DNA of 35,664 nucleotides from Clostridiales bacterium (lineage in GTDB: Bacteria; Bacillota; Clostridia; Oscillospirales; Acutalibacteraceae), in contig JAAYKB010000003.1 of NCBI GenBank assembly GCA_012522615.1, positions 1-35,664 of the forward strand, given 5' to 3'. The position numbers were made by a program, and so were the translations under genes. Positions 9,572 to 26,587 of this stretch are shown here, piece after piece. The stretch's first letter is position 1; every line of letters begins with the position of its first letter. The notes under the pieces are model-generated. The model was given only the letters and a program-made list of their open reading frames with translations, ran no database searches and had not been told where the DNA came from.

Positions 9572-9667
9572 AGGCGTGATTTTTAGTTTTTTATAAACAT
9601 ATTTGTTTCCTGCGGTAAATTTATTGACATTTTTCTTTTTCGGTTGTAAAATCTAACTGATTTCCAG

Positions 9668-9840
9668 AGTCATGAGTACAGGTGCCCGGAAACCGGGAGA
9701 ATAGGGAAGCGGGTGAAAATCCCGCGCGGTCCCGCCGCTGTAAAAAGCTGAAACGGTCTTCATAATGTCACTGGAGGAATCCGGGAAGACGAAAGACCGT
9801 AGCTTTGAGCCAGAAGACCTGCCTGTACCGGAATGTCCCC
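9668..9840 (+). promoter_or_regulatory. Cobalamin (AdoCbl) riboswitch aptamer
   Basis: ACAGGTGCCCG..., GGGAAGCGGGTGAAAATCCCGCGCGGTCCCGCCGCTGTAA, CACTGG, GAGCCAGAAGACCTGCCTGTA: canonical B12-box architecture. Confidence 0.95.
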
Positions 9841-9965: not shown

Positions 9966-10030
9966 AAGGGGAATGGAAATCAAGTATTATGGGAGCTTCA
10001 CTCCCCATAAAAGGAAAGGATGGATTTACC

Positions 10031-23666: not shown

Positions 23667-23894
23667 TTAGACTAACGCATCCTCGATTATGTCCCTAAAA
23701 TGGATATCGGCCACATCTCCCTTCGTAATCTTCTCCGCAAGATTACATACAAAATCATAGTCACATGAAATATCCTCGACCACAGCTAATACTTTTTGCA
23801 TACTCTTATAGGCTATTCCATATGTAACCGCCCAACCATAGTCCTCGATGTACTGCTCGCAGGTAATAAGTTCACATTTTTTATTAACAGTCAC
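23667..23894 (-). CDS. Small protein, possibly DUF6514-like (75 aa)
   Basis: YGIAYKSM..VVEDISCDYDFVCNLAEKI..DIHFRDIIEDALV; GGGAGAG upstream of GTG start. Confidence 0.5.
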   Translation of the reverse strand: MTVNKKCELITCEQYIEDYGWAVTYGIAYKSMQKVLAVVEDISCDYDFVCNLAEKITKGDVADIHFRDIIEDALV

Positions 23895-24048
23895 TAGTTA
23901 TCTCTCCCTTTCATTTTTTTGTAATTTGACTGAAGAATGTGCACTTTCTTCCCGTTTTATATGAGATAATAACAATTTAATGGTTTACGTTGTAAAAATA
24001 AATTGGTTATTATACAATTATTCATTAGATTTTGTTGGTTATTGTTGT

Positions 24049-24077
24049 CCATATTAGGTTTTCATGGTATAATTTGT
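24049..24077 (+). promoter_or_regulatory. Putative promoter of the response regulator gene (coordinates approximate)
   Basis: TTGTCC-17 nt-TATAAT. Confidence 0.6.
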
Positions 24078-24116: not shown

Positions 24117-24899
24117 ATGGAGAAAAAGCTGTCCGTTCTGTTGGTTGAAGACGACGAAAAGGAATGCAATCTAATTGCTCAGTATATCGACGAGCTTGAC
24201 GACGTTAGCCTGGTTGGCACAACCGACAATTCAGAACAGGGAATCGAATATGTTAAGGATTTTCTGCCCGAAGCTATTATTCTCGACTTGGAGCTTCATC
24301 AGGGCGGGGGAGACGGCTTGACATTTTTAAAGGAGCTAAGATACCTCAATTTGCGTGTCAAGCCTTATGTATTGGTGACTACCAACAATTCCAGCATGGT
24401 TACATATCAATGTGCGCGCCGGCTGGGGGCCGACTTCATCATGGCAAAGCAGCAGGCCGACTATTCGGCAAAGAATGTGGTTGAATTTCTCCGGATGATG
24501 AAAGAAACCATACAAGCAAAGGCAGCCCGGGAATCCCCTCACGGCACGACGGAATCGCCCGAGCAAAAGACCAAACGAATCATCCGCAGGATTTCCTTGG
24601 AACTTGACCATGTCGGAATCAGTCCCAAGGCCGTCGGTTATCAATACCTGATTGACGCCATACAACTGGTTATCAAAAAGCCCTCTACAAACCTCTGCTC
24701 AATCATCGGGGCAAAATACGGAAAAACCGATTCCAGCGTTGAGCGCGCCATGCAGAACGCCATAAACAGAGCCTGGCACACCGCCGACATAAACGATTTG
24801 CTGCAATACTACACGGCAAGGGTCAACTCCGAAAAAGGGGTGCCCACAATAACCGAATTTATTTTTTACTATGCCAACAAGATTAAAAATGAATATTAA
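24117..24899 (+). CDS. Response regulator: receiver domain plus Spo0A C-terminal-type DNA-binding domain
   Basis: Receiver: LLVEDDEKECNLIAQYI, AIILDLELHQGGGDG. C-terminal: ISLELDHVGISPKAVGYQYLIDAIQLVIKKP...SVERAMQNAINRAW, as in Spo0A-C. Confidence 0.88.
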   Translation: MEKKLSVLLVEDDEKECNLIAQYIDELDDVSLVGTTDNSEQGIEYVKDFLPEAIILDLELHQGGGDGLTFLKELRYLNLRVKPYVLVTTNNSSMVTYQCARRLGADFIMAKQQADYSAKNVVEFLRMMKETIQAKAARESPHGTTESPEQKTKRIIRRISLELDHVGISPKAVGYQYLIDAIQLVIKKPSTNLCSIIGAKYGKTDSSVERAMQNAINRAWHTADINDLLQYYTARVNSEKGVPTITEFIFYYANKIKNEY

Positions 24900-24942
24900 A
24901 AAATCGAGAGCCGCACAAAATGTGCGGCCCCTTCTCGATTCG
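24899..24942 (-). terminator. Terminator with its U-tract on the minus strand
   Basis: Minus strand AATCGAGAAGGGGCCGCACATTTTGTGCGGCTCTCGATTTTTT; plus-strand side lacks a T-run. Confidence 0.8.
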
Positions 24943-24948
24943 TCTAAT

Positions 24949-24993
24949 TTATATTACCAGTAGTCCACGAAGCCATACCCAAAACTTCCACAT
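24949..24993 (-). CDS. Tiny 14-codon ORF: MWKFWVWLRGLLVI (candidate signalling/leader peptide)
   Basis: ATG at 24993 preceded by AAAGGAGG with 7-nt spacing; stop TAA 24949-24951; TATAAT on the minus strand (25042-25047); minus-strand terminator directly downstream; in-frame stop upstream precludes a longer ORF from the intergenic region. Confidence 0.6.
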   Translation of the reverse strand: MWKFWVWLRGLLVI

Positions 24994-25120
24994 AACTAAG
25001 CCTCCTTTTATGTATTTTATTGATATAAGTTTACCCCATTTATTATATATTTTGTATTAGTTGACGATATGTGGTTGATGTAGATTTTTGTTGCATCTCG
25101 TCTAAAAAGGAAGGTTTTAA

Positions 25121-26587
25121 ATGATAGAGTTACTTATAAGACATTTTGCTATCATTCTTTCTAGCCTGTATACCTATGCAAGGCTTCTAAATCTGAAAAG
25201 AAGCCCCCGTCAAATTCTGATTTCATCTTTGTTTTCATTATGTTTGTCAGTAGCAACCTGTCTGATAAAGCTACATTTCTCATATATTAGTTTTCTTTCT
25301 ATGATTGTTTTTACTTTTGTTTTCACAACATGGAAAACAAAAACAAGGATAGAACTATCTGTGACAACCACTGTTCTATCCTTCGCAATCTGCTATGTAA
25401 TCTATTTTTTTTCGTCGGTACTCACATCAGGTGTTTTTTGGCTTTTTGATGTGGAATTGTCTGTTTCTCTGATTTATCTAACGGCGTGCTCATCCCTGCT
25501 GCTGCTTTTGATGATACGGCTGCCCTTTTTATCAAGGCGGCTGAAAAACGGCATGCCCTTTCTTATAAAAAAGGGGGGCGGCAATGCCGGCGTTATTATC
25601 AGCGTCATACTTTTGTGTTGTGGTATCTTGCTAAGTAACAATAAAGATATGCGACTGATCTATGTAGTTCCGTTATTTATGATAATATTCGGCGCCGTGT
25701 TCATGCTAATCTGGTGGCGGAGCAGGTTGACCAGAGAATATATAGAAACCCTGCGGAGCAACGAGATTAAAGACCTGCGGGAAATGCTTCTTAAAAAGGA
25801 GGACCAGATAGACTGCCTTGAACAGAATAACCAAGCCTTGGCGAAAATCATACATAGGGATAACAAGCTGATTCCCGCCATGGAGCTTGCCGTCAGGGAT
25901 TTTCTCAAGTCTGCCGAACAGATGGAGCAGACGGAATTGAAGCGGCACGGTCAGGAGCTTCTCCGGCAGCTCAAAGAATTGTCGGGCGAGCGTTCGGGTA
26001 TTATTGAGGAATACCAGTTCCAATGCAAAACTCTGCCGAAAACCAAGGTGTGTTCCGTAGACACGCTGATTTCATATATGTTCAATAAGTCCAAGGAATA
26101 TCGGGTAAAATTTGATCTGGCAATCCTCGGGAGCATAAAATACATGGTCGAAAAGGTTATCCCCGAATCGGATTTAAATACGGTGTTGGCGGATTTATGC
26201 GAAAACGCCATTCTGGCGGCCAAAGACAGTGAGAGAAAGAGCGTTTTGCTGGTTATCGGTATTTCCGACGGCTGTTATTCAATCGACGTGTTTGACAGCG
26301 GCCTGCCTTTTGAGATTGACACCCTCGCTAATCTGGGGCTCAAAAAAATTACCACCCGCGCCGAATCGGGTGGAAGCGGTATCGGGCTTGCAACGACTTT
26401 TGAGATAAAAGAGGCTCATAACGCCAGCTTTATTATTGAGGAGTATAATAACGACGGGCAGCTTTTCACCAAAAAGGTGTCGCTTAAATTTGATAATCTG
26501 AACCAATATCTTGTGATAACAAAAAGGGATGACGCTGTAAAAGCATCATCCCAAAGAGCCGATTTAACAGTAAGAAAACCGGATTAG
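25121..26587 (+). CDS. AgrC-like sensor histidine kinase (multi-TM N-terminus, GHKL ATPase)
   Basis: About 6-7 hydrophobic helices, coiled coil, IIHRDNK phosphoacceptor-like motif, N-box LNTVLADLCENAILAA, G-box SGGSGIGLATT; AAGGAAGG RBS. Confidence 0.85.
   Translation: MIELLIRHFAIILSSLYTYARLLNLKRSPRQILISSLFSLCLSVATCLIKLHFSYISFLSMIVFTFVFTTWKTKTRIELSVTTTVLSFAICYVIYFFSSVLTSGVFWLFDVELSVSLIYLTACSSLLLLLMIRLPFLSRRLKNGMPFLIKKGGGNAGVIISVILLCCGILLSNNKDMRLIYVVPLFMIIFGAVFMLIWWRSRLTREYIETLRSNEIKDLREMLLKKEDQIDCLEQNNQALAKIIHRDNKLIPAMELAVRDFLKSAEQMEQTELKRHGQELLRQLKELSGERSGIIEEYQFQCKTLPKTKVCSVDTLISYMFNKSKEYRVKFDLAILGSIKYMVEKVIPESDLNTVLADLCENAILAAKDSERKSVLLVIGISDGCYSIDVFDSGLPFEIDTLANLGLKKITTRAESGGSGIGLATTFEIKEAHNASFIIEEYNNDGQLFTKKVSLKFDNLNQYLVITKRDDAVKASSQRADLTVRKPD
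26521..26552 (-). terminator. Terminator of hppA embedded in the 3' end of the kinase gene
   Basis: Minus strand GGGATGATGC-TTTTACA-GCGTCATCCC-TTTTTGTT. Confidence 0.75.

Follow-up and report, generated by a model that had tools for sequence, protein, structure and literature searches.

Unannotated Trp-rich micropeptide genes paired with membrane histidine kinases in Clostridia, a family with a probable role in signalling

Introduction

Between a response regulator gene and the gene for a multi-transmembrane (multi-TM) histidine kinase, a Clostridiales genome carries an unannotated open reading frame (ORF) of only 14 codons. This locus lies within a 35,664-nucleotide stretch of DNA, which we call the window, and it raises the question of whether so short an ORF is a gene at all and, if it is, whether its product could be the ligand of the adjacent kinase, with the regulator as output, as the original prediction from the sequence had proposed.

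Results

A 14-codon gene with its own expression signals. By direct reading of the sequence, we found the ORF, its Shine-Dalgarno (SD) sequence, a TATAAT hexamer, and a terminator at the predicted positions (Table 1). The ORF runs on the minus strand from an ATG at 24993-24991 to a TAA at 24951-24949 (ATG TGG AAG TTT TGG GTA TGG CTT CGT GGA CTA CTG GTA ATA TAA) and has no N- or C-terminal extension, so that a leader and tail of the AgrD type are absent. The gene arrangement was also as described, with the ORF convergent with the regulator gene and divergent from the kinase gene. No good -35 hexamer is seen ahead of the TATAAT, a weak -35 being expected for an activated promoter. The predicted peptide transcript of 146 nt has a folding z score of -3.3 compared to its shuffles.

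Table 1 Features of the peptide locus, in window coordinates
Feature	Position	Strand	Basis or remark
DUF6514-family gene, 75 aa, unlisted	23670-23894	minus	between hrcA and the regulator gene
Tandem 0A-box-like repeat ATTAGATTTTGTTGGTTATTGTTG, regulator promoter	24025..24048	plus	motif search
Candidate regulator promoter, TTGTCC-17-TATAAT, TG before -10	24045..24073	plus	sequence reading
Response regulator, receiver + Spo0A_C, Spo0A paralogue	24117..24899	plus	domain match
Intrinsic terminator of the peptide transcript	24907..24931	minus	G+C-rich stem and T run directly after the ORF
14-aa peptide gene MWKFWVWLRGLLVI	24949..24993	minus	direct sequence reading and homologous ORFs in relatives
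Shine-Dalgarno AAAGGAGG	25001..25008	minus	7 nt from the peptide ATG
TATAAT, candidate -10 of the peptide gene	25042..25047	minus	by eye, consensus only
Tandem 0A-box-like repeat GTAGATTTTTGTTGCATCTCGTCT, ahead of both the kinase gene and the peptide promoter	25080..25103		motif search
Multi-TM histidine kinase (HATPase_c), the peptide gene's partner	25121..26587	plus	domain match, predicted structure, relatives

The flanking regulator and kinase. The regulator scored 118.6 bits against the Spo0A model TIGR02875, below the cutoff of 200, and the only other Spo0A_C protein of the genome (C94), which is encoded elsewhere, had the better match to PF08769 (156.8 bits, compared to 84.4 bits for the window regulator). 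These scores rule out the window regulator as Spo0A itself and make it likely that C94 is the genome's true Spo0A. The family search with the kinase returned a general HATPase_c match alone, and no GHKL/AgrC-specific family model matched it; in sequence, sporulation kinase B and ZraS come closest to its catalytic part, and a fold search placed the AgrC cytoplasmic domain at rank 39, among many kinases. In an AlphaFold model of the kinase (mean pLDDT, 84), about 6 to 7 N-terminal helices form a bundle that is followed by a long signalling helix and the kinase core, which predicts a multi-helix membrane sensor. Thus, the earlier description of an AgrC-like GHKL kinase holds loosely, for the multi-TM architecture, and is not supported for the family. 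The lack of AgrB noted earlier for the window extends to the whole genome (94% complete), which contains no member of PF04647, and no exporter or protease was found to recur beside the peptide/kinase loci.

Many of the related loci have a small divergent XRE-type regulator (105 to 120 aa) upstream of the response regulator gene (seen among L045, L046, L048, L054, L056, L061, L069, L080, L084, L086, L091, L092, L210-L213, and L215); the window has the DUF6514 protein in its place. Elsewhere in the window, we found a match to the Rfam SpF59/ldcC RNA at 320-374 (68.8 bits), here outside Streptococcus and ahead of apparent polyamine-synthesis genes, and a cobalamin riboswitch at 9663-9840 (120.6 bits) upstream of a gene at 9989 for a small protein that looks exported.

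The ORF recurs in related loci. A kinase-profile scan of GTDB genomes yielded 52 useful loci, the majority of which encode a similar ORF behind a strong SD in the gap between the regulator and kinase genes. An SD-led ORF of 11 to 20 aa with at least two Trp residues was found in 29 of 40 homologous gaps between regulator and kinase genes, compared to a mean of 0.04 (maximum, 1) in 200 dinucleotide-preserving shuffles of these gaps, and in 0 of 138 other intergenic regions (40.1 kb) from the same loci. The conservation of ORF, SD, and Trp pattern that had been proposed as a check on the prediction was therefore observed. One relative found earlier (L033) encodes MWDWWKFILDLLNQ behind a strong SD; further SD-led peptides between regulator and kinase are MRDFWHWFLYLFGI, MLEYWIWFISLFGI, MDFWKYLMSWFAI, MWKSFWNWLRNLWYCV, MSFWEWVKYWMGL, and MSFWDWVRYWFGL, and peptides with a GTG start, such as MSWWEWLWWLLNGGGR, are also present.

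A class-wide search provided an independent second sample, the distant genus g232, which belongs to a different family and has the kinase in about half of its species. The ORF was present in 69 of the 70 g232 loci with enough upstream sequence (typical peptides are MLDWFDAMWKWLSFWL, MSWEDFWNWLRYWLGM, and MDWYEAFWQWVKRWLP), and the one exception, L180, lacks both the peptide and the regulator. Together with the 38 loci from the first sample and single loci from two more genera (L098 and L105), the g232 set makes about 109 loci. Since two pairs of loci have identical peptides (MSLYEAFLRWLNKWI in one pair and MFDLLLAWIRKWAG in the other), they encode about 107 to 108 distinct peptides, nearly all of them 12 to 18 aa long. 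Loci normally have a single copy, and a tandem duplication is seen at L065:3735-3869, where MWDWLIRMIGGGL and MWDWLIRMIGGGGY each have their own SD. A strict finder detected terminators in 19 of 38 cases, compared to 4 to 8 after shuffling, a count that is a lower bound given that the window's own terminator was missed. Taken across loci, these comparisons indicate that the 14-aa gene, missed by annotation, is a member of a large conserved family and not a chance ORF.

An inverted repeat ends at the peptide SD in L056, L058, L071, L091, and L035 (e.g., CTTTGTATTG...CAATACAAAGGAGG) and is perhaps a stabilizing or gating hairpin at the 5' end.

The peptide was absent from a clade of nine kinases (L053, L064, L072, L073, L074, L079, L081, L082, and L085) and from L047, L055, L180, and L204. 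The remaining 11 genomes of the genus to which the window belongs lack the kinase, and there were no relatives in viral contigs. In several loci of the peptide-less clade, in which kinases are often in tandem, we observed a short transcription-unit-like element in the regulator-kinase gap (L036, L037, L039, L053, L064, L073, L074, L079, and L085), with boxes like those of a promoter, an inverted repeat (GTGATAT..ATATCAC), a strong terminator, and a conserved run, TTTCATATCACC, similar to an anti-Shine-Dalgarno seed. This element is possibly a small RNA that replaces the peptide.

Selection and physical character of the peptides. Across 32 disjoint pairs of g232 peptide genes, dN/dS was 0.48 and substitutions at the first, second, and third codon positions numbered 116, 102, and 156, a third-position excess, while pN/pS was 0.89 and 0.96 when these genes were read in the two remaining frames. 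This pattern points to in-frame purifying selection on the g232 peptides and to a real coding gene. The helical hydrophobic moment, scored against residue shuffles, had a z score over 1 in 68 of 69 g232 peptides, with a mean of 2.6, and the mean was 1.6 for the other 38 peptides; no beta signal was seen in the hydrophobic moments. By this measure, the peptides are amphipathic helices, strongly so in g232. They are rich in Trp (about 20% of residues), Leu, and Phe, their Trp codons are spaced mostly i, i+3/4 and seldom lie next to each other, and their net charge is mostly 0 to -2, which makes them near-neutral or slightly acidic. Their sequence changes rapidly between close species while the physical pattern is kept.

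The peptide gene is coupled to the kinase. ORF orientation follows the kinase tree, with the minus strand used in one deep clade and the plus strand in the other, and a single long-branch row (L089) out of place. Three loci (L035, L083, and L098/L214) have the peptide and the kinase with no adjoining regulator, which argues that the peptide gene has the kinase as its partner. After catalytic and regulator distances were removed, peptide distance correlated with kinase-sensor distance (partial correlation, 0.265; 0/400 permutations), with corresponding values of 0.19 for the catalytic part of the kinase and -0.07 for the regulator; all of these distances share a phylogeny, and the positive value for the catalytic part means that the sensor-specific signal is modest. 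Read in this way, the values indicate that peptide divergence follows the kinase more closely than it follows the regulator. Within one genus, a signature of SD, ATG, and Trp was found in 33 of 73 kinase-bearing genomes compared to 2 of 75 kinase-lacking genomes (P = 2e-10). The signature in one of the two kinase-lacking exceptions (G694) is at a contig edge, and in the other (G776) the peptide gene is intact and the approximately 400 nt that remain of its contig show no kinase. In the nine-kinase clade, several members of which have tandem kinases, the ORF has been lost as a unit. The coupling of peptide and kinase that had been predicted is thus borne out by orientation, by the regulator-less loci, by co-divergence, by co-occurrence, and by the clade-wide loss of the ORF.

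0A-box-like repeats lie upstream of the regulator and peptide genes. The core of the repeat in the regulator promoter (TTTGTTGGTTATTGTTG, at 24031-24047) matches its pattern perfectly, as no other site in the genome does, and tandem repeats such as GTTGCTTTTTGTTGCTTTTTGTTG are common to the regulator promoters of the related loci. A motif trained on regulator promoters alone scored 7.0 bits upstream of peptide genes, compared to 0.5 bits for shuffled sequence, and the plain 0A-box core was found upstream of the peptide gene in 18 of 69 g232 loci when 1.7 were expected. These boxes fit feedback by the Spo0A paralogue. The earlier idea that this regulator is the output of the system is plausible. 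A regulon search of the window genome with the regulator box pattern gave 31 matches, compared to 46 for a reversed control, so we claim no wider regulon.

Discussion

We think it somewhat probable that the window peptide belongs to a family of leaderless micropeptides, is translated in finished form from a short transcript of its own, and serves the neighboring multi-TM kinase as its dedicated signal. In such a circuit, the Spo0A-paralogue regulator would bind the tandem 0A-like boxes and drive both its own gene and the peptide gene. Translation of the short transcript would yield the finished, leaderless peptide, which would need neither leader nor dedicated protease to reach the medium or the membrane. 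There, the Trp-rich face of the peptide may engage the transmembrane sensor of the kinase, and this engagement would alter phosphorylation of the regulator, whatever the sign of the effect and the output genes may be, and close the feedback loop. The broader proposal, that widespread unannotated, leaderless, amphipathic micropeptides directly control membrane kinases of Clostridia, as quorum sensing with no precursor, protease, or dedicated exporter, seems to us evenly balanced.

Alternatively, the kinase may respond to another stimulus, and the peptide may be a modulator, a toxin, or an immunity element. MgrB and SafA are small proteins that directly tune kinases, and the peptide might likewise stay unexported at the inner membrane surface and tune the kinase of the same cell. 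An amphipathic, Trp-rich helix suits the membrane interface, no dedicated exporter or protease is nearby, and the coupling to the kinase is tight, but peptides that change quickly between close species and yet keep their physical pattern resemble a specificity code more closely. This diversification and the established leaderless signals of Firmicutes, tiny peptides whose export is known (PMC10518010), lead us to favor a secreted signal and to view a resident modulator as a serious but rather unlikely reading, although the sequence evidence fits both.

We consider it improbable that the peptide is a membrane-active toxin or antimicrobial, such as a mini phenol-soluble modulin (PSM) or a type I toxin, with the kinase and regulator sensing membrane stress or giving immunity. 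PSM genes are leaderless too, and the composition and amphipathicity of the peptides are like those of short membrane-active peptides, but the net charge of the peptides is mostly not cationic, there is usually one copy per locus, no transporter recurs, and the regulator boxes ahead of the peptide gene fit a circuit. A small regulatory RNA with an incidental ORF would agree with the short transcript, the strong terminator, and the small RNA-like unit that a sister clade seems to carry at the same place; we reject this reading as very improbable on the basis of the in-frame purifying selection, the conserved SD, and the helical periodicity. The least credible reading, which we also reject, is a Trp-codon leader peptide of a trpL-type transcription attenuator. 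A Trp-rich tiny ORF is indeed followed by a terminator, like that of trpL, and in one orientation precedes the kinase gene, but the minus orientation of the window and its clade has only the convergent regulator downstream and no co-oriented target, several plus-strand loci have a separate TATAAT-like box between terminator and kinase, non-Trp residues and helical phase are conserved, and the Trp codons are mostly at i, i+3/4 instead of adjacent.

The literature searched, mostly without preprints and subscription papers, contained nothing on this peptide family, and a description elsewhere is possible. As far as that literature shows, the family is previously undescribed; it is carried by many gut and rumen Clostridia and is probably used in signalling. 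Because gene callers do not reach genes this short, current annotation may hide a whole layer of signalling in Clostridia from gut, rumen, and termites. If it is the peptide that the kinase binds, as we favor, this would be the simplest two-component quorum-sensing design known, with about 108 peptide/kinase pairs ready for specificity tests, and ultrasmall ORFs beside orphan kinases would offer a route to decoding those kinases.

Several known systems share parts of this design. As in Agr (AgrBDCA), a multi-TM kinase, a regulator, and a peptide gene are found in one locus, and feedback is probable. In contrast to Agr, AgrB and an AgrD precursor are absent, the regulator has Spo0A_C and not LytTR, and the kinase matches no AgrC-type family, and by all of these features the window system is not Agr. 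SHP/Rgg and XIP/ComRS, the analogy drawn in the original prediction, also have short, hydrophobic, Trp-containing peptides beside a regulator. Since SHP and XIP are cut from longer precursors and are sensed in the cytosol by Rgg proteins, the leaderless LCP/SIP signals are the closer comparison. Phenol-soluble modulins and delta-toxin resemble the peptides described here as leaderless amphipathic helices tied to a two-component system. PSMs are 20 or more aa long, act as effectors rather than cognate ligands, and are exported by Pmt, whereas the peptides of this family, nearly all of 12 to 18 aa, are shorter.

LCPs, such as SIP of Streptococcus pyogenes and LCPss (MWLILLFL) of S. salivarius, are leaderless tiny signals, mostly of 8 to 10 aa, that bind cytosolic RopB-clan receptors and are known only with these; histidine kinases are unmentioned in that account (PMC10518010). 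Unlike LCPs, the peptides of this family are nearly all 12 to 18 aa, amphipathic, and charged, in Clostridia they accompany a Spo0A-type regulator and a histidine kinase of the membrane, and they have no adjacent RopB-clan (Rgg) receptor, the upstream XRE proteins of many loci being only about 105 to 120 aa. Like LCPs, they are encoded by an ultrasmall intergenic ORF with its own ribosome binding site and no leader or processing sites, have an aromatic and aliphatic composition, adjoin a (here putative) receptor gene, and occur as species-specific variants. The LCP/SIP signals are the closest working analogue of the window system, which stands outside that group in both receptor and peptide length.
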